This document shows positions 12,545-25,761 of a stretch of 37,062 bases of DNA, piece by piece. Position 1 is the stretch's first letter. Each line of letters opens with the position of its first letter. The DNA comes from a virus, in IMG/VR virus record IMGVR_UViG_3300032265_000829, positions 1 to 37,062 of that record; one strand, written 5' to 3'. The translations under genes and the position numbers were made by a program. The notes under the pieces are model-generated. The model ran no database searches and was not told the origin of the DNA. It worked only from the letters and a program-made list of their open reading frames with translations.

Positions 12545-13010
12545 TCCAATATTAAAATTACAAGCATTACACTGGAATTTTGAAAAAGATACTGGTGCAG
12601 AAGAACTAGAAGTTAGCATGGTTCAGCTTATGGTTGAAAGCGGCGGCATTGGGCTAGCTGCCAATCAGGTCGGTCTTCTTAAACGAGTTTTTGCAATACA
12701 TCTTAAAGACCAAGTACCATTTTGTATGTTTAATCCATATATATTGTACGGAGACAACGATATGGTACACGAAGATGAAGGATGTTTAAGTTTTCCTGAG
12801 TTATTTTTAAAAATACCGCGTCATAAAAATATTACAGCCGCTTATGTTGACAGACAAGGTAATAAGCGTATAATAGAACTAACTGGAATAGATTCGAGAT
12901 GTTTCCAACATGAACTGGACCATTTAGACGGCGTATGTTTTATTGAACATATTAGTCCACTAAAATTGGCATTGGCTAAAAAGAAATTACTTAAAAAGAG
13001 GAAGAAATAA
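12522..13010 (+). CDS. def: Peptide deformylase
   Basis: A 162-residue metal hydrolase that removes the formyl group from new N-termini. All three family motifs are present: Gly-Ile-Gly-Leu-Ala-Ala-Asn-Gln (42-49), Glu-Gly-Cys-Leu-Ser (86-90; metal ligand C88) and His-Glu-Leu-Asp-His (130-134; ligands H130 and H134, catalytic E131). The C-terminal tail is very basic (a Lys/Leu-rich stretch ending in Lys-Lys-Arg-Lys-Lys). It starts inside the end of dnaJ and shares one base with the clpA start, so all three are translationally coupled. Cyanophages are known to carry deformylases; here it sits within a chaperone operon. Confidence 0.94.
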   Translation: MQLIKHPDPILKLQALHWNFEKDTGAEELEVSMVQLMVESGGIGLAANQVGLLKRVFAIHLKDQVPFCMFNPYILYGDNDMVHEDEGCLSFPELFLKIPRHKNITAAYVDRQGNKRIIELTGIDSRCFQHELDHLDGVCFIEHISPLKLALAKKKLLKKRKK

Positions 13011-15295
13011 TGGTTGAACCTAGTGATAATCTACAAGCAGTGTTTGAAAAAGCAATTGATACTGCCAAAAAACTACATCACGAATATCTAACCATAGAGC
13101 ATTTGCTATTTGCTATGCTTTTGGAAGAAAGTTTTAGCAATAGTATTAATGGATTCGGAAAAGATGCCGATGCCCTTAAACAAGAATTAGCAGACTATCT
13201 CCAGCACAAGTGTGACGAAATTAAAGTAGAAGATGTTGTTGTAAAACCTAAAAAGACACAAAGTGTTGAGCGTGTGCTTAATCGTGCATTTACACAAGTG
13301 TTATTCAATGGACGTCAACGGATTGAACCTACTGATGTGTTCCTTGCTATGATGGGTGAAAAACGTAGTTGGGTGCATTATTTTGTCCAGAAAATGGAAA
13401 TCGATAAAGACAAATTTAACGACTACTTAAATAATGTTTCTGAAGTTGGTGAGGAAGAAGAAGGACCAAGTCATAATCAAGCTGACAAAGCCCTGGCGGC
13501 ATTTACTACAAACTTGAATGATCAAGTTATTAAAAATAAAATTGATCCAGTTATTGGTCGTATTGACGAATTAGAAAATATTGCATTAAGTCTGGGTCGA
13601 CGTAGTAAAAATAACGTGATCTTGGTTGGCGATCCAGGTGTTGGTAAAACTGCTATTGCAGAAGGTCTTGCTTACAACATTGTTAAAGGTGCAGTTCCAG
13701 ACTTCTTAAAAGAATATAAAGTTTATAGTTTAGATATCTCAGCAATGCTGGCTGGTTCTAAATACCGCGGTGACTTCGAAGAACGATTCAAAATGGTTCT
13801 AAAAGGTCTTGCAAAGAAAGGTAAGACTGTGCTGTTCATCGACGAGGCACATATGATCTCTGGCGCAGGATCTGCTAGCAACTCTGCTAACGATCTCGCT
13901 AACATGATGAAACCGGCTCTAAGCAAAGGCAACATTAAAGTTGTGGCCAGTACTACCTGGGAAGAATATCGCAAGCACTTTGAAAAGGATCGTGCGCTCA
14001 TGCGCCGTTTCCAACGCATTACTATTGACGAACCAACTATTGAAGTTACTAAGCAAATCCTCAAGGGTATTAAAAAATACTACGAAGGATTTCACAATGT
14101 TAAAATCCGTGACGATGCTATTGACTCGGCTATTAAGTTATCAGTTAAGTATCAAACAGATAAGAAGTTGCCCGATAAGGCAATTGACCTTATTGACTTG
14201 GCATGTTCGCGTTTTAATTTAAAACTATCAGACGAACGTATCATCGGCGAACGCGAGATCCAGTTTGAACTTGCTAAGATGGTCCAAATGCCTGAAGAAA
14301 AGATCATGGAAACTGAATCTAGCAATCTTGCTTCTCTACAAGATAACTTGCAAAAAGAAGTGTATGGTCAAGACCTTGCATTAACTGAAGTTGTTGATAA
14401 GATTATGGTTGCACAGGCCGGGCTGAAATCCGAGAACAAGCCCATTGGATCATTTGTATTCATGGGGCCAACTGGTTGCGGTAAGACCGAAACAGCCAAG
14501 GCGCTGAGTAAGCACTTGGGTGTCAAGCTACTACGCTTCGACATGTCAGAATACCAAGAGAAGCATAGCATCTCTAAGTTAATCGGTAGTCCTCCAGGCT
14601 ATGTTGGATTTGAAGAGAACGCAGGTTTGTTGATTACACAAGTTCAAGAAAACCCAAATGCCGTTCTATTATTTGACGAAGTGGAAAAATCACACCCCGA
14701 TGTAACAACTGTGTTGTTACAAATGATGGATAACGGATTTGTCACCGGATCAAACGGAAAACAAGCAGATTGTCGCAATTTAATTCTCATTCTTACTACT
14801 AACGCTGGCGCCCAAGATGCTGAGAAGAATGTTATTGGCTTTGGTACACAAGAAAAAGACTATAGTGACAAAGATTTGAAAAAGTTCTTTACGCCGGAGT
14901 TCCGTAATCGTTTAGACGGCATTATGACATTTAACAAATTAGGCAAAGAGTCTATGGTTAAAGTTGTTAACAAGTTTATTGATGAACTTAAAGCACAGGT
15001 TAAAGATAAAGGTGTTAAGATTAAAATTAACAAAGAAGCTATTGAATGGCTAATTGCTAAGGGATTTGATCCTAAGATGGGTGCTCGGCCACTACAACGT
15101 GTTATTGACAAAGAAATCAAACGCAATCTTGCTAAGATGATGTTGTTTGGAGCATTAAAGAACGGTGGCGGTGCAAGCATTACAGTCGACGGAGATCAAC
15201 TAATGATTGTTGCTACGCCTAAAGAAGTTAAAGTTCCATTGCTAACAGTTGACACAACAGAAAATATTGTGGATAGTCCAATTGATTCAATTTAA
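13010..15295 (+). CDS. clpA: ClpA-type AAA+ unfoldase
   Basis: A 761-residue double-ring AAA+ unfoldase, almost the length of bacterial ClpA (758). It has an N-domain (1-145), D1 with Walker A 207-214, Walker B Phe-Ile-Asp-Glu-Ala (276-280) and pore loop Lys-Tyr-Arg-Gly (251-254), and D2 with Walker A 486-493, Walker B Leu-Phe-Asp-Glu (554-557) and pore loop Gly-Tyr-Val-Gly (530-533). There is no coiled-coil M domain, so it is not ClpB. D2 carries Ile-Gly-Phe at 609-611, in the position of the loop that docks ClpA/ClpX on ClpP. No ClpP is seen nearby, so host ClpP is the probable partner. It may redirect proteolysis to host or phage substrates. Confidence 0.93.
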   Translation: MVEPSDNLQAVFEKAIDTAKKLHHEYLTIEHLLFAMLLEESFSNSINGFGKDADALKQELADYLQHKCDEIKVEDVVVKPKKTQSVERVLNRAFTQVLFNGRQRIEPTDVFLAMMGEKRSWVHYFVQKMEIDKDKFNDYLNNVSEVGEEEEGPSHNQADKALAAFTTNLNDQVIKNKIDPVIGRIDELENIALSLGRRSKNNVILVGDPGVGKTAIAEGLAYNIVKGAVPDFLKEYKVYSLDISAMLAGSKYRGDFEERFKMVLKGLAKKGKTVLFIDEAHMISGAGSASNSANDLANMMKPALSKGNIKVVASTTWEEYRKHFEKDRALMRRFQRITIDEPTIEVTKQILKGIKKYYEGFHNVKIRDDAIDSAIKLSVKYQTDKKLPDKAIDLIDLACSRFNLKLSDERIIGEREIQFELAKMVQMPEEKIMETESSNLASLQDNLQKEVYGQDLALTEVVDKIMVAQAGLKSENKPIGSFVFMGPTGCGKTETAKALSKHLGVKLLRFDMSEYQEKHSISKLIGSPPGYVGFEENAGLLITQVQENPNAVLLFDEVEKSHPDVTTVLLQMMDNGFVTGSNGKQADCRNLILILTTNAGAQDAEKNVIGFGTQEKDYSDKDLKKFFTPEFRNRLDGIMTFNKLGKESMVKVVNKFIDELKAQVKDKGVKIKINKEAIEWLIAKGFDPKMGARPLQRVIDKEIKRNLAKMMLFGALKNGGGASITVDGDQLMIVATPKEVKVPLLTVDTTENIVDSPIDSI

Positions 15296-15979: not shown

Positions 15980-16351
15980 ATGCGTATACAGGAATTATTA
16001 GAAGGTAAAAAGTTTGATGATTTGGATTTTGTCACCAAAGAAAACGGCAAGCGTTCAATTAACTTTGATTTAGTTGAAGATCTAATCCATTTCATGAACC
16101 AAGATGACGATGTATATCGCCGTCACACTTATCCGGCTATCGCAAACTGCTTGGATAAAATGTCTGGGAAAAGCAAACCCAACACAACAGTATTTGAGCC
16201 AGCTGTCAAAGAAAGCTACAAACTATATACCCGTAAATATCCAATCCGTGAATTACCGGATGAGATCGATAGCAAGATGTGTGAACAAGTATGCAGTAAG
16301 ATACACGAAGAAGTTCTAAAACATATCAGTGACGGAAAGTATAAGGAATAA
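15980..16351 (+). CDS. Small late protein with capsid-targeting-like leader
   Basis: A 123-residue protein whose start, Met-Arg-Ile-Gln-Glu-Leu-Leu-Glu-Gly-Lys, resembles the short leaders that T4 gp21 removes after Leu-x-Glu (here Leu-Leu-Glu, then Gly). The remainder is charged, probably helical, with two Cys near residue 95 and a Tyr-Arg-Arg-His-Thr-Tyr-Pro block. It was not recognised as a family. It is the first gene of the cassette, after a T4-like late promoter motif. RBS is weak (ACGGGC). It may be a small protein packaged in the head; this is inferred from leader and context only. Confidence 0.55.
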   Translation: MRIQELLEGKKFDDLDFVTKENGKRSINFDLVEDLIHFMNQDDDVYRRHTYPAIANCLDKMSGKSKPNTTVFEPAVKESYKLYTRKYPIRELPDEIDSKMCEQVCSKIHEEVLKHISDGKYKE

Positions 16352-16353
16352 TA

Positions 16354-18207
16354 ATGCTACTACGCGAATTATTCTACAATGTCAAACCTCCACTAATGGA
16401 AGGCGGCAATATATGGCCAGAATCAGAACACTTTGATCAGGCTATTGCAAGTCATCTAGCACACGAAACTAACAAATATCTAAAAGGTGTACAAACTGGT
16501 GTACATTTAATCGGCAGTGCCGCAACTCCTACTCCTGGTAAAATGAGTGGAGACTTGGATGTAATGGTCGACCTTAACCAACTAATGCAACAGTTTGGCA
16601 CTAAAGACGGTAAAACTACAAGAGCTGAATTAGAAAAATACTTGCAATCCAAAGGATTACAAACTAAAAAAACTGGAGTGACTGTACATATATTATTACC
16701 GTACAAGGGCAAGTTTTATCAAGTAGATATTAAAGCAGTAGGTAATGCAGAGAAGGTACATAAATTCCATCATCATAGTATACCTGCTGGCAGTCCTTAT
16801 AAAGGTGTCCACAAACAAATGATGATGAACGCACTAGCAAGTAGTCAGGGTATGCTTTGGAGTCCAGACGAAGGTCTTTATGCAAGAGACGAACTAGGCA
16901 AGAAATCAAATTTTATTAGCGATGACTTAGATGTTATTGCACATCACTTACTTGGTAAACATGCTAAAGGTTCTGACTTAGGTAGCGTAGAAAGTATCCT
17001 AGCCGCTATACCAGACGAAGCTCGCCGTAATGATATATTCCAAAAAGCAAGTACTGGTGCAAGTTGGTTAGCAGTTAGTCCACAACAAGTCAATGAAGCG
17101 GCAGCTCCAGCAGTTGGTCGCAAGTACCAGCACATCGAAGATTTAGTTTTTACAAATGGGAGTAACGGCGGCTTACATGCTGTCGAGCGTTTACGTCACA
17201 TGGGTTCTGAAGGCGGCGGCATTGAACTAAAGTGGGACGGTAGCCCAGTTGTATATTGGGGTCGTGATGAGCAAGGTGTATTTCACTTAATTCCTAAAAA
17301 TGCTTGGGAATATTTAAAGCGTGGAGCACAGCAAACAAAAAGCGGTGTTCCTACTATGATGAATAGCGCCGACGATATTGAAAATTTTATTCTTAATACA
17401 GGTAACCCAGTTGCTGGAGATAAGAAAAGAATGGCATTTGCAAAAAGCATGGGTAGCTTATGGCCTTACTTTGAAAAGATTAGTCCTGAGAGCGGATTTA
17501 TTGAAGGCGGTATATTGTTTAGCCCATTGCAACCACCTAAACTTAATAAACAAACCGGAGATTACGATTTTACTCCTAACATTACCAGTTTCCACATTCC
17601 AGCAAAAAGCGAACTAGGACAACGTATTAAAGGCGCTAAAGTAATGGTAGCCGCTACAGGTTGGTATGACCGCATCGGTGGTGAAGAGCAACGTTATCCA
17701 GATGCAGAACAATTAAGCACTCCTGATGTTATTGTACAAGGTACAACTTATGTACAAGAAGCGCCAGGCATTGACGAGCGTGGATTAGACCATGTACAAG
17801 GTTATATAGAACAAAATGCCGCTAATATCGATAGTTTTATCGCAGGACAACCCGGTTTGAGCAAACCCGGAGATGTGTTGTATAAATTCTTCAATCAAAA
17901 TTTACGAGTAGCAGGTGTTAAATCTAATTTTGCTGAATGGGTTAAGAATAATGTTAGTGCAGGTCAAGCACAAAAAGTATTAAGTCATCCGGGGTTAAAT
18001 AGTATATTGACCGCTGTAGAGTTAATAACTAATGAAAAGATGAAACTAATACAACAACTTAGCCGTGGAACACATGGCGGCATTAGACAAACAAAACCAG
18101 AAGGATATGTTCAGGCACATCCTGGTACACCATTTAAAAATGATTTGCCAGGACAATTTGTTAAAACAATCGATCAGGCAAACTGGGCACCAAGGAAAGA
18201 AGCATGA
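16354..18207 (+). CDS. Fused Pol-beta-type nucleotidyltransferase and ligase-like protein
   Basis: A 617-residue two-domain protein. Residues 1-17 look like a capsid-targeting leader (Leu-Met-Glu, then Gly). Domain 1 (about 25-215) has a Pol-beta superfamily pattern: Gly-Ser at 54-55, Asp-x-Asp at 67-69 and a third Asp at 125 in Gln-Val-Asp-Ile-Lys. Domain 2 (about 255-610) has the covalent nucleotidyltransferase (DNA/RNA ligase) motif Lys-Trp-Asp-Gly at 293-296, then Phe-Ile-Glu-Gly-Gly-Ile-Leu-Phe (382-389, motif III-like), Glu-Gly-Tyr-Val (583-586, motif IV-like) and Phe-Val-Lys (602-604, motif V-like). A polymerase/tailing domain plus ligase in one chain recalls end-joining or RNA-repair enzymes. 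Activity is inferred from motifs only. RBS AAGGAA precedes ATG; the stop overlaps the next start (ATGA). Confidence 0.65.
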   Translation: MLLRELFYNVKPPLMEGGNIWPESEHFDQAIASHLAHETNKYLKGVQTGVHLIGSAATPTPGKMSGDLDVMVDLNQLMQQFGTKDGKTTRAELEKYLQSKGLQTKKTGVTVHILLPYKGKFYQVDIKAVGNAEKVHKFHHHSIPAGSPYKGVHKQMMMNALASSQGMLWSPDEGLYARDELGKKSNFISDDLDVIAHHLLGKHAKGSDLGSVESILAAIPDEARRNDIFQKASTGASWLAVSPQQVNEAAAPAVGRKYQHIEDLVFTNGSNGGLHAVERLRHMGSEGGGIELKWDGSPVVYWGRDEQGVFHLIPKNAWEYLKRGAQQTKSGVPTMMNSADDIENFILNTGNPVAGDKKRMAFAKSMGSLWPYFEKISPESGFIEGGILFSPLQPPKLNKQTGDYDFTPNITSFHIPAKSELGQRIKGAKVMVAATGWYDRIGGEEQRYPDAEQLSTPDVIVQGTTYVQEAPGIDERGLDHVQGYIEQNAANIDSFIAGQPGLSKPGDVLYKFFNQNLRVAGVKSNFAEWVKNNVSAGQAQKVLSHPGLNSILTAVELITNEKMKLIQQLSRGTHGGIRQTKPEGYVQAHPGTPFKNDLPGQFVKTIDQANWAPRKEA

Positions 18208-19511
18208 GATTACTGCAACTTATTGAAAATTTAAATCGCACAGGGCAGGGCAAGGCTGCGGTAGTAGGTTGGGGACGTGGTATGGGTCACAAAGGTCACA
18301 TGTATTTGGCTAGCAGTGTTATTACACAAGCAAACGAATCCGATGCAGATCCGTATTTTGTTGTTAGTCGTACAGTAGGTAAAGACGATCCAATTACACC
18401 AGAAGAAAAAATGCAGATTTATAAAAAAGTATTTCCAAAGCATGGACATATTTTTCATACTGCTACTGACGAAATGCCCGATTTAACTCGTGTATTGTCA
18501 CAACTAGATCATCACGGATATACAGATGTAACTGTTGTTGTTGGTGCAGACCAAGTTAAAGCATTAAGCTATGTTAAACATTATAATGGAACTCCTGATA
18601 AAGCAGGGAAAATCCCGTATTCATTTAACACTTTAAATGTTATTAGCCGTCAAGAAACTAACGATCCAAGTCGTGAAGAAGAAGGGCCACGTGCTACACC
18701 AATGCGATCTGTACTCACAGATCCCAATGCGAGCGATGAACAAAAGTTTCAAACTTGGCGTGATGCAATGAGCCCAGAAATTAGCGATGATGAAGTTCGA
18801 GACTTGATGCACAAAGCACAAGCACGTATGCAAGACTTTACTAAGCCTAAAGTTCGAGCAAAGAAAGAAAAGGCGGTGGTAGAGATGGACAAATCGCAAA
18901 CTCCACCAGGACGCGACGGGCACGTAAGTCATAGCACATATGGTTCTAGAGACAAGAAAGATCCAGATGCTGGCAAGAAAGAGTATACTGCTAAAGCAAT
19001 TACAGCCAAACAAACAACTGATTCTGCTACAGGTATCCTTAGCAAAGCATTTACTGACTCACAAAGAGTAGATCCGCGCACTGGCAAGAAGATGGTTCAG
19101 AAAGGAGTGGCGGAAGGTTTAAAAGAGGCAAACGCTGTTGCAAGATCCTTACGAGAAGGTCACGGCGGTATGCAGAAAATACATCCGCATCAAAAAGCCG
19201 CAATTAGAAATGCCACTACCTATCCACAACAAAACATGAGTACGGGTAGTTCATATTTAAATTATAGAATGGGAATCGCTCTGGCAGGTGCTCCTGATTA
19301 TCCTACAAAGATAGAAGCAGATAACTGGATTGGCGGAGATCCTTTATTTGCGCCATACACCGAAGAAGAAAATGACATGCTTGATGCCGCCGCTAAACAA
19401 GTCGGTGGTGGTAAACGTCAAACTTGGAGTAACGACCGCAGTTTAGAAACAGCTGATACTAATAAGACTAGTGCAGTAGCAAAGATTAAAAAGAACAAAT
19501 ACGGAATTTAA
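18204..19511 (+). CDS. HxGH-type nucleotidyltransferase with extended C-terminus
   Basis: A 435-residue protein. The N-terminal 165 residues fit the class I adenylyl/cytidylyltransferase fold: a Gly-Trp-Gly-Arg-Gly start, then the nucleotide-binding His-Lys-Gly-His (29-32), and later an Ala-Thr-Pro-Met-Arg-Ser stretch in place of the usual Ser-x-x-x-Arg motif. Phage versions are often called cytidylyltransferases. Residues 170-320 are Lys-rich and low in complexity. The last 115 (Gly-His-Gly-Gly-Met, many Asn/Tyr) form a separate domain I do not recognise. The leader Met-Arg-Leu-Leu-Gln-Leu-Ile-Glu resembles a capsid-targeting peptide. It is coupled to the ligase-like gene by ATGA, so the two may act together. 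The substrate is unknown. Confidence 0.7.
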   Translation: MRLLQLIENLNRTGQGKAAVVGWGRGMGHKGHMYLASSVITQANESDADPYFVVSRTVGKDDPITPEEKMQIYKKVFPKHGHIFHTATDEMPDLTRVLSQLDHHGYTDVTVVVGADQVKALSYVKHYNGTPDKAGKIPYSFNTLNVISRQETNDPSREEEGPRATPMRSVLTDPNASDEQKFQTWRDAMSPEISDDEVRDLMHKAQARMQDFTKPKVRAKKEKAVVEMDKSQTPPGRDGHVSHSTYGSRDKKDPDAGKKEYTAKAITAKQTTDSATGILSKAFTDSQRVDPRTGKKMVQKGVAEGLKEANAVARSLREGHGGMQKIHPHQKAAIRNATTYPQQNMSTGSSYLNYRMGIALAGAPDYPTKIEADNWIGGDPLFAPYTEEENDMLDAAAKQVGGGKRQTWSNDRSLETADTNKTSAVAKIKKNKYGI

Positions 19512-19512
19512 T

Positions 19513-19950
19513 ATGGACGAGAAATATCATTTAGCATTACAAACTGCATTTGCCAGCGAATATGCATTTGCACTTAAGGCACAAAACTTCCACTGGAATG
19601 TAGAAGGGCCATTATTTTATCAAAATCATTTGTTATTTGAAACAATATACGACGAAGTATACGGAGTAGTTGATAAGTTTGCAGAAGAATTACGTGCTTT
19701 ACAAATATATACTCCAGCTAGTCTAGCAAAATTTAGTATGCTTACCCGTGTACAAGATGAAAACGAAGTTCCTGATTTTCAAGGAATGTTGCGTGAACTA
19801 TTAGCTGACAGCGAAAAAATGTCTCAAATGTTTAAAATTGTATTTGCCATGGCTGAAAATAATGGCGATCACGGGTTGAGTAACTTTTTTGCAGATCGAC
19901 AAGATGCACATAAGAAACATAGTTGGTTTTTAAGATCAAGTTTAAAATGA
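19513..19950 (+). CDS. dps: Dps-family ferritin-like DNA-protection protein
   Basis: A 145-residue four-helix Dps protein. The ferroxidase pattern is complete: H27 in Asn-Phe-His-Trp-Asn-Val-Glu-Gly, then H39, E43, D54 and E58. These match the spacing of H31, H43, D47, D58 and E62 in Listeria-type Dps. Dps 12-mers bind DNA, oxidise Fe(II) with peroxide and store iron. The protein has no Lys-rich N-terminal tail, so DNA binding is not certain. It lies among probable packaged or late virion proteins, coupled to the next gene by ATGA. It could protect incoming or packaged DNA or detoxify iron and peroxide in the host; this is inference. Confidence 0.9.
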   Translation: MDEKYHLALQTAFASEYAFALKAQNFHWNVEGPLFYQNHLLFETIYDEVYGVVDKFAEELRALQIYTPASLAKFSMLTRVQDENEVPDFQGMLRELLADSEKMSQMFKIVFAMAENNGDHGLSNFFADRQDAHKKHSWFLRSSLK

Positions 19951-22333: not shown

Positions 22334-23308
22334 ATGGACATGAAGCGCATACTACAGGCGATGGATGGAGTTGCTACTAAACCTGTAGTAGGCGCTAATA
22401 GCATGGCTCGATTTTTATCTATTGTAGATATCAACACAAATTCACAGGTATTAACTGAAAGTAAAACTCCTCACAAGGTTGCATTACCTGTACAAATGGC
22501 CATGCAACACTATCAAAAAACAGAAACTGCTCCCGTTAAACAATCACTGGGCGTAAGCAAGTACTTTCACAAAGTCGAAGAAGAGCTTGCTGAACAACAA
22601 GCACACAAACGTCAACTAATAAATCAATATGCCAGCACTATTGCTGAACGTGTATTAATGAAAGAAGGCAAGTCTGTTAAACAACGCCTAGATCCCAAGT
22701 GCTGGACAGGCAAACACAAAGAAGGCACCAAGATCAAAGGTGGTGTACGTGTCAACAACTGTGTACCTAACGAGAGTATTAACGAACATGAAGCTGGTTG
22801 GGATCGACACGGGCAAGGGCCTGGCATGCAAAACTATGTAGTTGACGAAGCACCATTGGATTTTGACAAAGATGTCCCAATGTCTAGCACTATATATGGC
22901 CACAAAGGTGTTAACCCTGCTAGTATAGAATATCGTATGACTCGAGCACGTGGTCAGTTACAAGAATTAGCTAAAATGGCAGAACGTGACGATCCCTTGA
23001 CATGGCAACATATTGCTAGACTGTTTCCAGAACTAGCAATGAACATAGAACAAATCGATCACGGTCTAAGACAACTAGGAAGCATCCGTCGTAAAGGCGG
23101 ACGCAATAGTAAAAATATTCCGCAACATTTAGATCCAGATGTTAACGAAACAGTACTAAATACAATCAAACCAAAAACAGCAATGCCCAAGGCCATTAAG
23201 CCTAAGATAAAAACCAGTACATGTCGTGCAGGTCAGACTCAAACAGGTATGCAAATTAAGGACGGTAAATCAGTACCCAAGTGCTCAATGACAGGAATAA
23301 AGAAATGA
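22334..23308 (+). CDS. Late/virion-associated hypothetical protein
   Basis: A 324-residue basic protein. The N-terminus (Met-Asp-Met-Lys-Arg-Ile-Leu-Gln-Ala-Met-Asp-Gly) and a Phe-Leu-Ser-Ile-Val-Asp segment near residue 28 recall T4-like internal proteins. Residues 118-148 hold Arg-Leu-Asp-Pro-Lys-Cys-Trp-Thr-Gly, Gly-Gly-Val-Arg-Val-Asn-Asn-Cys-Val-Pro, a cysteine-bearing block that seems conserved in marine T4-like phage late proteins. The C-terminus is Lys-rich with two Cys. It overlaps the next start by ATGA (23305-23308). The function is not known. Confidence 0.6.
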   Translation: MDMKRILQAMDGVATKPVVGANSMARFLSIVDINTNSQVLTESKTPHKVALPVQMAMQHYQKTETAPVKQSLGVSKYFHKVEEELAEQQAHKRQLINQYASTIAERVLMKEGKSVKQRLDPKCWTGKHKEGTKIKGGVRVNNCVPNESINEHEAGWDRHGQGPGMQNYVVDEAPLDFDKDVPMSSTIYGHKGVNPASIEYRMTRARGQLQELAKMAERDDPLTWQHIARLFPELAMNIEQIDHGLRQLGSIRRKGGRNSKNIPQHLDPDVNETVLNTIKPKTAMPKAIKPKIKTSTCRAGQTQTGMQIKDGKSVPKCSMTGIKK

Positions 23309-25761
23309 ACATACGCGACCTATTAGATAAAATCGATACACTGTCGGAAGCTGGAGAAACAGCTCCAACTAGTATCACACCAACACATTTCCATAAAAGT
23401 AATTTGGGAACTACACTTCCATTAATGATGACACAACCAGGAATATTTTGGTGGGAAGGAAGTAATAACGATAGCGAAGGCGGCCGTGGGGGCGGACGTT
23501 CTATCCAACGTTGGCAAGGTAATACTGAGAACCGTTCCAAATGGAATCCGGCCAGTGTTGATGGGATCTATGTAAACGGAAAGCCTGTTGAGTTTCCAGA
23601 AGGTGTAACTTGGCGTACTTATAAACCCGAAGGAGTTAAACCACCTGTAGCAGAACCAGGAAAAAAACCCGAAGAGCAAAGCACAAAACCTCCTGTCAGA
23701 ACCCCAGTGGATGACGGTCATACTGCAAAACTAAATGCATTGGCATTACAACTTCAAGACAAACTAAATTCTAAAAAGACTGATAAACAAGACGTTAAGC
23801 CTACACCAGATAACAGCACTGTTAAATGGCCTACTACTCCAGACGAAATCAAAGCGTTCCAAACTGGCAGAAAAGATCCAAGACAAGACTCTAAGACTCA
23901 AGCTGATGGTAATTTAGCAGTTGACGGGATTATAGGAAGTCACACATATCAAGCATTAATACAAGCAGGCGCTAAACCTCCTGCTGATTTTAGAGTAACC
24001 TCGTATAAAGAAGGACTCGAAAATATTGCAAATAATCTAATGGAAAGTTTTGGATACGATGTCGAACTAGACGAATATAGCTTAAATCAATTTGGTACAG
24101 ATGTTGGTGCCGGTGCTAGAGGCATTGGCAACGGTTTGACCTTTGGTTACGGAGATAACTTGGTTGCAGGAGCCAAAGCTGGATTAGGACTTGAAAAAGA
24201 TTACAAAACAGCATTGGGCAAAGAAATGGCCAATACTGCTAGAGCACAAGCAAATTCAAGTTCAGCAGAATTTAACAACCCGTTATATAATACATGGGTC
24301 GGTGATAAACTTGGTGCTAAAAAAACATTCAAAGTTAATCCGTATGATGTAGGCGACATTGTAGGAACAGTTGCCGCACCTATTCCAGGTAGTATTGCAT
24401 TAAAAGGTGCAAGCAAAGCAGGTCAGCTTGCATTAGGAGCAGGGCTTAATGTTGGTACTGCTGCCGCTGCCGGAATAGCAAAAAATTGGCATGATGAGAA
24501 ATCAACAGGATTAACTCAAGAACTAGTTGATCGTATTGCTAAAATGCCGCCTGAGTTACTCAAAAACGTTCAAAAGTCTTACGGGTTACCTGAAACAGGA
24601 AGACTAGATCCTGCTACATTAGATGCTATCGGAAAAGAAACCCAGAGAGCAAAGCAAGAAAAAGAGAAAAAAGAATCTACAATAAATCAAAATAACATAT
24701 TGTCAGAATCTGAAAGAATGTCTGCATTAAAGAATCGTCTTGCAAGAATAGACGAAGGCGAACCTGGTGCAAATTTACTAGCGAGACCTATAGAACGATT
24801 ATTAGGTATTGGTGGCAGAGATTTAGCTAAAATGACCGATAAAGAAATTGCTAACATGATTGGACACGGCGGTTCACTTGAAAGAGTCGGCCCGCAAGGC
24901 ATAATCATGCCCAAGGTAGAACCCAAAGTAACTCCTAAAGTAGAACCCACCGTAAAAACAGAGCCAGGCGGCAACGTTAAGAATACAAATACAAACACTG
25001 CAACAGGTGGAACTTCTAGTAGTACATCTGCCGGTGGTAACGCAGGTGTAAAAGGTTCAGGTAATTCAACAAACACCATAACCAATAACCCTGTGATTAA
25101 TATCAACATCGGAGCAAAAGAACTTGCAACAGCCGCACGAGCTGTTGAACACGATGCAGGACCTCTAGTTGCTAAAGAATTTGAAGCAGTTGTTAAAACT
25201 GGCGATAAAGCAAAGATCGGTAGCTGGTGGGAACGTAACAAAGGCAAGGTAAAGTGGACTAGCGGCACTTTGGCTGTGTTAAGTGCTGTTGGATTGGGAG
25301 GTTTATTATTTGGTGGGAAAGATGATGCACAAGATACAAAACCAGATCCAGATACACCAGTAACTCCTGGTACAGATACACCAGTGACTCCAGTAACTCC
25401 TGGTACAGATACACCAGTGACTCCAGACGAAAAACAAGATACAAAACCAGATCCTGAAGTAGAAGCACTGATTCAACAAATGCAAGAACTAATGATGGGA
25501 TACGAAACTGACGAAAGTCCAGAATGGTCGCAAGCTACATCAAATGCTCAGTCGTTAATTGACCAAGCTAAAGGAAATAAAAATACTAGTCAAATAGATT
25601 CTGATAAAAAAGCCGCTAGAAGAATTCCAACTACCGGATCACAAAGCACTAAACCAACATCAAATACAAGTTCATCAAACTTGCCAGATGAGTTGGAAAT
25701 AAGTCCTAACAAAAAAGATCCAATTAAAGTTGCAAAAGGCACAGTAATAGGTCCTCGTTAA
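23305..25761 (+). CDS. Large virion-type protein with peptidoglycan-binding-like motifs
   Basis: About 818 residues from ATG 23305, which overlaps the prior stop (ATGA); GTG 23281 is an unlikely alternative. The leader ends in Leu-Ser-Glu then Ala (16-19), like a prohead-protease site. Two stretches resemble PG_binding_1 repeats: Ala-Val-Asp-Gly-Ile-Ile-Gly-Ser-His-Thr near 210-220, and Tyr-Gly-Leu-Pro-Glu-Thr-Gly-Arg-Leu-Asp-Pro-Ala-Thr near 425-437. Gly/Ala-rich hydrophobic segments (265-290 and 355-395) and a probable transmembrane helix (Thr-Ser-Gly-Thr-Leu-Ala-Val-Leu) near 655-670 could insert in membrane. A Pro-Val-Thr-Pro repeat follows, then a Ser/Thr-rich tail. It resembles ejection-type internal proteins; this is inference. 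Confidence 0.6.
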   Translation: MNIRDLLDKIDTLSEAGETAPTSITPTHFHKSNLGTTLPLMMTQPGIFWWEGSNNDSEGGRGGGRSIQRWQGNTENRSKWNPASVDGIYVNGKPVEFPEGVTWRTYKPEGVKPPVAEPGKKPEEQSTKPPVRTPVDDGHTAKLNALALQLQDKLNSKKTDKQDVKPTPDNSTVKWPTTPDEIKAFQTGRKDPRQDSKTQADGNLAVDGIIGSHTYQALIQAGAKPPADFRVTSYKEGLENIANNLMESFGYDVELDEYSLNQFGTDVGAGARGIGNGLTFGYGDNLVAGAKAGLGLEKDYKTALGKEMANTARAQANSSSAEFNNPLYNTWVGDKLGAKKTFKVNPYDVGDIVGTVAAPIPGSIALKGASKAGQLALGAGLNVGTAAAAGIAKNWHDEKSTGLTQELVDRIAKMPPELLKNVQKSYGLPETGRLDPATLDAIGKETQRAKQEKEKKESTINQNNILSESERMSALKNRLARIDEGEPGANLLARPIERLLGIGGRDLAKMTDKEIANMIGHGGSLERVGPQGIIMPKVEPKVTPKVEPTVKTEPGGNVKNTNTNTATGGTSSSTSAGGNAGVKGSGNSTNTITNNPVININIGAKELATAARAVEHDAGPLVAKEFEAVVKTGDKAKIGSWWERNKGKVKWTSGTLAVLSAVGLGGLLFGGKDDAQDTKPDPDTPVTPGTDTPVTPVTPGTDTPVTPDEKQDTKPDPEVEALIQQMQELMMGYETDESPEWSQATSNAQSLIDQAKGNKNTSQIDSDKKAARRIPTTGSQSTKPTSNTSSSNLPDELEISPNKKDPIKVAKGTVIGPR
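25357..25422 (+). repeat. Two perfect 33-base tandem repeats
   Basis: Copies at 25357-25389 and 25390-25422 are identical and in frame, encoding 11 residues each of Pro-Val-Thr-Pro-Gly-Thr-Asp-Thr-Pro-Val-Thr. A 20-base direct repeat, CAAGATACAAAACCAGATCC, flanks them at 25330-25349 and 25435-25454. This is a linker-type expansion within the virion protein. Confidence 0.9.

Follow-up and report, generated by a model that had tools for sequence, protein, structure and literature searches.

RlaP nucleotidyltransferases of the Pol-beta superfamily work beside phage RNA ligases (PMC7824862), and a role in protein modification has been proposed for the Pol-beta nucleotidyltransferases of the polyvalent proteins that phages deliver (PMC5512222). 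Capsid maturation offers a further precedent, as the T4 protease gp21 cleaves after [LI]-x-E (PMC9026906). The component types of the locus considered here are already known. In a 37-kb (37,062 nucleotides) fragment of a T4-like contig from an aquatic phage (IMG/VR record IMGVR_UViG_3300032265_000829, hereafter the window), a Pol X-like nucleotidyltransferase (NTase) and a ligase-like domain of the DUF6267 family are predicted to share one reading frame behind a leader of the capsid-targeting type (Table 1).

The NTase–ligase gene and its homologues

The window codes for T4-type DNA polymerase, clamp loader, baseplate and PhoH proteins, while head genes are absent from it. The bounds of the NTase–ligase frame given by an earlier reading of the sequence alone (the sequence-only reading) were exact. 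A search of IMG/VR with the encoded protein returned 282 related stretches. The best 80 of these 282 loci were kept; nearly all encode a full-length protein with 60–95% identity to that of the window, and together with the window protein they form the 81-sequence comparison used below. The frame is real and is conserved in hundreds of uncultured T4-like phages. A cellular origin was rejected, the matches in genome collections having the appearance of phage contigs in MAGs or assemblies; one such locus (L324) is a T4-like replication cluster within a Nonlabens assembly. A defence-system reading gave no match in PADLOC.

The sequence-only reading had singled out G54, S55, D67, D69, D125, K293, D295, G296, E384, E583 and K604 as motif residues, and each was found at the position assigned to it. 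All were invariant with the exception of D125 (76/81): G54, S55, D67, D69, K293, D295, G296 and E384 were present in 81/81 sequences, such that no homologue compared lacked K293 or the D67/D69 pair, whilst E583 and K604 were present in 80/80 and 79/79 of the non-truncated sequences, respectively. Judged from the aligned sequences, the conservation of these residues and of the leader site is far beyond chance.

Table 1 Features of the NTase–ligase precursor and of leader-bearing neighbours. Positions are those of the window; a slash marks the predicted cleavage position.
Feature	Position	Strand	Basis
NTase–ligase precursor ORF	16354..18207	+	617 aa
Capsid-targeting-type leader, residues 1–16, ending L-M-E/G	16354..16401	+	site in 81/81
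Pol X-like NTase domain (predicted), about residues 25–234	16426..17055	+	AF2 pLDDT mostly 80–95; Foldseek
GS…DxD motif (G54, S55, D67, D69)	16513..16560	+	invariant 81/81
Third carboxylate D125	16726..16728	+	Asp 76/81, Gly 5/81
Disordered linker, residues 235–258	17056..17127	+	pLDDT <50
Predicted internal prohead-protease site V246-N-E248/A249	17089..17100	+	70/81 homologues
DUF6267 ligase-like domain, about residues 255–611	17116..18186	+	PF19782; AF2; PDB fold matches
Ligase motif I, K293-W-D295-G296-S-P298	17230..17247	+	K, D, G, P invariant, n=49
K315, equivalent of T4 Rnl1 motif Ia lysines K117/K119	17296..17298	+	invariant, n=49
Motif III-like strand E384-G-G-I-L388	17503..17517	+	G385 invariant; cyanophages QGDLL
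Ligase motif IV, E583-G-Y-V586	18100..18111	+	E, G, V invariant; hhalign pairs with T4 Rnl1 motif IV
Motif V lysine K604	18163..18165	+	invariant; hhalign pairs with Rnl1 K240
HIGH-type cytidylyltransferase/NMNAT-like partner, short leader MRLLQLIE/N	18204..19511	+	phrog_3041, E 3.6e-22
Small gene upstream of precursor, leader MRIQELLE/G	15980..16351	+	
826-aa gene of the same leader-bearing cluster, leader TLSE/A	23281..25761	+	peptidoglycan-binding domain

Two predicted enzymatic domains

An AlphaFold2 model of the full protein, built on a 25-sequence alignment, revealed two domains (mean pLDDT 78). Foldseek comparison of the N-terminal half with the PDB returned Pol lambda (E 9e-6) followed by Pol beta, Pol mu and ASFV PolX, the last giving the highest target-normalised TM (0.53); with the full model, 50/50 of the matches listed were Pol X. 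The Pol-beta-type half proposed from sequence is thus supported by a predicted fold like that of polymerase lambda/beta and ASFV PolX and by the invariance of the GS…DxD residues, whilst the comparison with CCA-type enzymes suggested at the same time is not favoured. The profile searches also suggested then gave no match, whether of the N-half to the Pol X and RlaP profiles tested or of the C-half to those of ligases. For the N-half, the Pol X palm and thumb profiles (PF14792 and PF14791) and the RlaP profile (PF10127) gave no match, and no close match to it was found in prokaryotic genomes. We describe this half as Pol X-like on the basis of its predicted structure, and as a candidate member of family X.

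Glycine at position 125, which occurs in five of the 81 sequences (a direct reading for L052; apparently the L052–L056 subclade), suggests an NTase that is altered or inactive. Separately, gp156 of cyanophage S-CREM2 (L248:4513-5226) is a small NTP_transf_2, Pol-beta-like NTase that appears in the published virion proteome and is encoded near the virion cytidylyltransferase; possible homology to the N-half was considered but dismissed, there being no detectable relationship.

The C-terminal half, from residue 259 on, scored 52.8 bits against the Pfam family PF19782 (DUF6267; cut-off 27), a family likewise matched by 25/25 homologues checked. DUF6267 was present in 471 GenBank phage records, almost all of them Synechococcus or Prochlorococcus myoviruses, and among the matches listed its proteins are annotated as 'hypothetical'. 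Pfam gives the function as 'unknown' and no mention of the family was found in the literature searched. The ligase half, put forward earlier as part of an undescribed system, is therefore a known Pfam family of some 470 phage records and is not unique to this locus.

Alignment of 49 diverse DUF6267 members, with identities down to approximately 20%, identified K293, D295, G296, P298, K315, G385, N409, E583, G584, V586 and K604 among the invariant residues. We take the signature of covalent nucleotidyltransferases to be K-x-D-G, a lysine some 20 positions downstream, a G/D strand, E-G-h-V and h-K-h, and presume the counterparts in T4 Rnl1, by assignment of roles, to be K99-x-D-G, K117/K119, E159, E227-G and K240/K242. 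The putative motif Ia lysine K315 lies at +22 from the motif I lysine, compared with +18/+20 in Rnl1. Motif III reads EGG in the clade of the window and QGD in cyanophages; E384, proposed as a motif residue, is accordingly kept throughout the close homologues (81/81) but is Gln in cyanophages, with Asp two residues on. The second lysine of the motif V KxK is absent in DUF6267, and a helical insertion of approximately 100 residues precedes motif IV. The DUF6267 proteins of a Xanthomonas jumbo phage and of a straboviral vibriophage keep the ligase motifs, as does a cyanophage version of 298 aa.

Modelled alone, the C-half attained a pLDDT of 87 and a pTM of 0.82. Its best PDB match was the Trl1 tRNA ligase, with a Palaeococcus RNA ligase and the ASFV, T4 and human DNA ligases also among the best; nearly all top ranks were occupied by ligases, none of them individually significant (best E 0.06). 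In a BFVD fold search, annotated viral RNA ligases ranked after the DUF6267 kin. When the family was aligned with T4 Rnl1 using hhalign, motifs IV–V were paired exactly, with a score of 26.7 that 0/60 column-shuffled profiles reached, albeit by a narrow margin (shuffled maximum 26.2); hhalign comparisons with T4 Rnl2 and T4 DNA ligase were no better than those with shuffled profiles. Searches of Pfam and NCBIfam, and of the PDB by phmmer/hmmsearch, gave no profile link from DUF6267 to any ligase family and none to Pol X. PDB hits to malate dehydrogenase, a decarboxylase and coiled-coil structures were dismissed as chance. The RNA ligase 1 profile PF09511 had no match in the window protein or in eight sister records, and the DNA ligase profiles PF01068 and PF01653 gave no match. 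The two halves thus model as a Pol X-like fold and as a fold whose best matches are mostly ligases. The ligase-like half anticipated from sequence is supported by the invariant motif set together with these fold matches, and DUF6267 is very probably a divergent polynucleotide ligase.

In S-PM2 (L090, AJ630128) DUF6267 and the cytidylyltransferase appear split, whereas in BFVD a 591-aa cytidyltransferase-like protein of S-PM2 matches the C-half; the discrepancy may reflect a sequence difference between records.

Leader, linker site and neighbouring genes

Residues 1–18 of the precursor were modelled with a pLDDT below 50. The leader end (L14-M15-E16-G17) fits [LIV]xE/[GAS] in 81/81 sequences, with E16 invariant, and a site of the same type is found on the major capsid protein Gp23 of a 161-kb sister genome (G001), whose leader ends ALLE/G; the capsid-targeting-type leader recognised by the sequence-only reading thus stands. 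Among the leader-bearing genes of G001 are the head genes as well as a series at 101–115 kb to which the NTase–ligase gene belongs, and motif-bearing N-termini occur in 19/123 of its ORFs as against 6.6% of interior windows. By itself the protease-site motif is weak-to-modest evidence for any single gene; its conservation is stronger. The S77 prohead protease (PF03420) and Gp23 were detected in 3/8 sister records, the other records being fragments. Within the window, protease-type sites are clear in the genes at 15980, 16354, 23281 and 25859 and weaker (E/N) at 18204 and 20231. T4-style leaders were found on 40/193 sampled DUF6267 proteins, a sample biased towards leaderless cyanophages, and the proteins that bear them are diverse members outside the leaderless cyanophage group. 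The DUF6267 protein of an isolate, Methylophilales phage Melnitz-3, also has a leader.

A second candidate site, VNE/A at residues 246–249 of the linker, had escaped the sequence-only reading. A linker site of the form [LIVFM]xE/[AG] is present in 70/81 homologues and in 42/49 distinct linkers, compared with 1.6% of windows of 14 residues taken from other parts of these proteins; in 11/81 homologues it is off consensus. Four sister loci (L366–L369) carry the NTase and the ligase as separate genes with a four-base overlap. There the NTase starts M-[KNI]-L-L-E/GGNIW and the ligase has a leader of its own, for example MKFSDILFE/AAAP, before GRKYQ. L315 exhibits the same split, the start of its NTase lying off the contig. 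The fused linker, NE/AAAP-x-x-GRKYQ, lines up with the point at which the leaders of the stand-alone ligases end (LFE/AAAP; L315 and L366–L369). From these sequences, the simplest account would be that gene fusion kept the protease site, through which the two parts of the precursor come apart within the prohead. The fusion noted earlier is indeed a single ORF, but in view of the second protease-type site in the linker and the separate leader-bearing genes of sister phages, its product is probably a precursor cut into two enzymes rather than one working enzyme.

Six other loci (L014, L019, L055, L056, L070 and L071) further join the ligase and the cytidylyltransferase in one frame, and each of the junctions read (L014, L019, L055 and L070) keeps [IL]QE/[ND]. 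The single 1569-aa frame of L070 (5986-10692) encompasses NTase, ligase, cytidylyltransferase and a weak SprT-like zinc peptidase match, together with a ParB/sulfiredoxin-like segment recognised by eye.

In essentially all homologous loci of sufficient length the gene next after the ligase is that of the cytidylyltransferase, which also follows DUF6267 in most cyanophages examined. This partner has been detected in virions of S-SM1 (PMC3037559), S-SZBM1 (PMC9146016), S-SCSM1 (PMC9602691) and S-CREM2 (PMC10665884), the authors of the last two studies cautioning that co-purification is possible. In S-SZBM1 the leader-bearing cytidylyltransferase was in the virion proteome and the DUF6267 protein, which in that phage has no leader, was not, a pattern that the leader hypothesis predicts. 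Variants of the partner were also observed. In L367 (6152-8548) it is fused to an HD_4 (RelA/SpoT-like) hydrolase domain, and in L365 (6173-11140) a 1656-aa frame with the leader MKIANLLE/A contains cytidylyltransferase, DUF5661, DUF6934 and amidoligase domains.

Immediately beyond the cytidylyltransferase of the window lies a Dps/ferritin-like gene (19513-19950) that recurs in many, not all, sister loci, and a ClpA/ClpC-type AAA+ unfoldase (13010-15295) upstream of the cluster is found in 82/82 sister loci compared. In cyanophages the DUF6267 gene sits in the replication cluster, after gp43, UvsX, gp41 and MazG. By eye, a PD-(D/E)XK-like motif is recognisable in genes upstream of DUF6267 in cyanophages and a vibriophage (L324:7151-7930, L375:5033-5932 and L376:2656-3924); the upstream gene of L324 and three other upstream genes gave no informative Pfam match. 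A nuclease–ligase–cytidylyltransferase module may represent the ancestral state.

Proposed role and comparison with known systems

From the computed conservation, motifs, N-half fold, sites, operon and split genes we infer a course of packaging, cleavage and catalysis, and a substrate. The reading that we favour, with a probability of roughly 0.55, is that the gene specifies two nucleic-acid end-processing enzymes in the form of one precursor, which is packaged in the head, and that both are delivered with the DNA. For these enzymes RNA would be the likeliest substrate and DNA the second. The 16-residue leader would direct the precursor into the prohead, where a gp21-type protease would remove it at LME/G and probably cut the linker too, at VNE/A, yielding a Pol X-like NTase (residues 17–248) and a DUF6267 ligase (residues 249–617). 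Both enzymes would then enter the host with the phage DNA; the NTase would add missing nucleotides at a cut end and the ligase, after self-adenylation on K293, would reseal the strand. The adjacent leader-bearing cytidylyltransferase would be part of the same delivered set. The likeliest target is RNA (tRNA) cut by host defence nucleases, followed by nicks, gaps and ends in DNA. The slight preference for RNA comes from the likeness of the ligase to Rnl1 and Trl1 and from the occurrence of RlaP-type phage NTases beside RNA ligases. No tRNA genes were found in the window or in the sister genome, a weak hint that host tRNAs would be those saved. Weighing against the favoured reading are the missing profile links to ligases, Pol X and RlaP, the lack of an individually significant fold match for the C-half, the deviations in motifs III and V, the glycine at position 125 in 5/81 homologues, the absence of the (leaderless) DUF6267 protein of S-SZBM1 from its virion proteome, the frequency of motif-bearing N-termini in G001 and the off-consensus linker sites in 11/81.

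DUF6267 could instead be the DNA ligase that these phages otherwise miss, filling and sealing gaps or ends of phage DNA with the Pol X-like half, at entry or during replication, in the manner of ASFV PolX plus ligase. In keeping with this, a recognised ATP- or NAD-dependent DNA ligase was found in 0/10 DUF6267-bearing phage records, T4 presents the reverse in having gp30 without DUF6267, the cyanophage gene lies in a replication cluster, and the N-half resembles a DNA polymerase X, with ASFV PolX foremost by target-normalised TM. In fold and motifs, however, the nearest counterparts of the ligase lean to the RNA ligases Trl1 and Rnl1, and DUF6267 is also carried by a straboviral vibriophage, a member of a group expected to have gp30. 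Furthermore, many phages use the host ligase, and replication needs no head-delivered copy; we consider this account a serious rival, though the less likely one. Less probable again is that both domains are active on something other than a polynucleotide, for example a host protein or small molecule that they would nucleotidylate, the cytidylyltransferase supplying or using a nucleotide product. Protein modification has been proposed for the Pol-beta NTases of polyvalent proteins (PMC5512222), motifs III and V depart from those of ligases, and the partner is NMNAT/cytidylyltransferase-like. The N-half fold, conversely, is of Pol X rather than MNT type and the ligase-type lysine set is complete, including motif Ia, making such a target improbable.

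Two further possibilities concern the protein itself. The linker could be a flexible hinge only, within an enzyme that remains single and bifunctional in the virion or the cell, and its glutamate a relic of the former leader of the ligase. The degenerate linker sites (11/81) and the in-frame fusion of more modules in several lineages are compatible with a hinge. Against this, the site is kept in 70/81 amid variable flanking residues and over a background of 1.6%, and the ligase–cytidylyltransferase fusion junctions retain a comparable site, rendering the hinge unlikely, if worthy of consideration. It is very improbable that the protein is a decayed or structural internal head protein that has kept its enzyme folds and lost activity: the loss of the third carboxylate in 5/81 sequences and the unusual motif III would fit, but even at very deep divergence the catalytic-type residues rank with the best-conserved positions.

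Should the preferred reading of a packaged pair of end-processing enzymes be right, an anonymous gene in approximately 470 phage records, mostly of cyanophages, would be assigned the function of a divergent polynucleotide ligase. Repair enzymes that arrive together with the genome could already be at work ahead of transcription, at the time of the first strike by host nucleases, and by cleaving fused enzymes inside the head a phage could simply load several activities with a single leader. As a tentative generalisation, T4-like phages may package a modular polyprotein toolkit (Pol X-like NTase, new ligase family and cytidylyltransferase) whose fusions the capsid protease splits inside the prohead and which is injected to undo the attack of host nucleases ahead of any phage gene expression, DUF6267 being a new ligase family in most cyanomyoviruses.

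The literature searched contained no description of DUF6267 as a ligase, of a Pol X-like domain paired with it or of a packaged precursor open to cleavage, and none of an internal processing site separating two enzymes. Among the systems most like this one are the cyanophage members of DUF6267 (PF19782; phrog_455; cyanophage cluster T4-GC 71), which share the invariant motif residues and the downstream cytidylyltransferase. These members, however, are approximately 300–400 aa in length, have no NTase half and in many cases no leader, and their loci have a different upstream gene, that with the PD-(D/E)XK-like motif. The phage pair of RlaP and ATP-dependent RNA ligase (PMC7824862) is alike in placing a Pol-beta-superfamily NTase beside an RNA-type ligase; the N-half described here differs in being Pol X-like with no RlaP profile match, and the pair in being made as a single precursor that carries sites for capsid targeting and processing.

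T4 RNA ligase 1 and the ligase domain of fungal Trl1 present KxDG, the motif Ia lysine, EGhV and the motif V lysine in the same order as DUF6267, which is set apart by its helical insertion, altered motif III, missing second motif V lysine and want of a profile match. With DNA polymerase X (Pol lambda/beta and ASFV PolX) the N-half has in common a predicted fold over some 200 residues and the S-G-D-x-D and V-D-I motifs, but it has neither a profile match nor the 8-kDa lyase domain and is fused to a ligase-like domain. Finally, the short leader ending [LI]xE/, the multidomain character and the predicted delivery with DNA recall the T4 internal head proteins (IPI–III and Alt) and phage polyvalent proteins, from which the window protein differs in its enzymatic content. 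Polyvalent proteins carry several effector domains; the window protein, whose delivery is predicted, has two, and that of L070 more.
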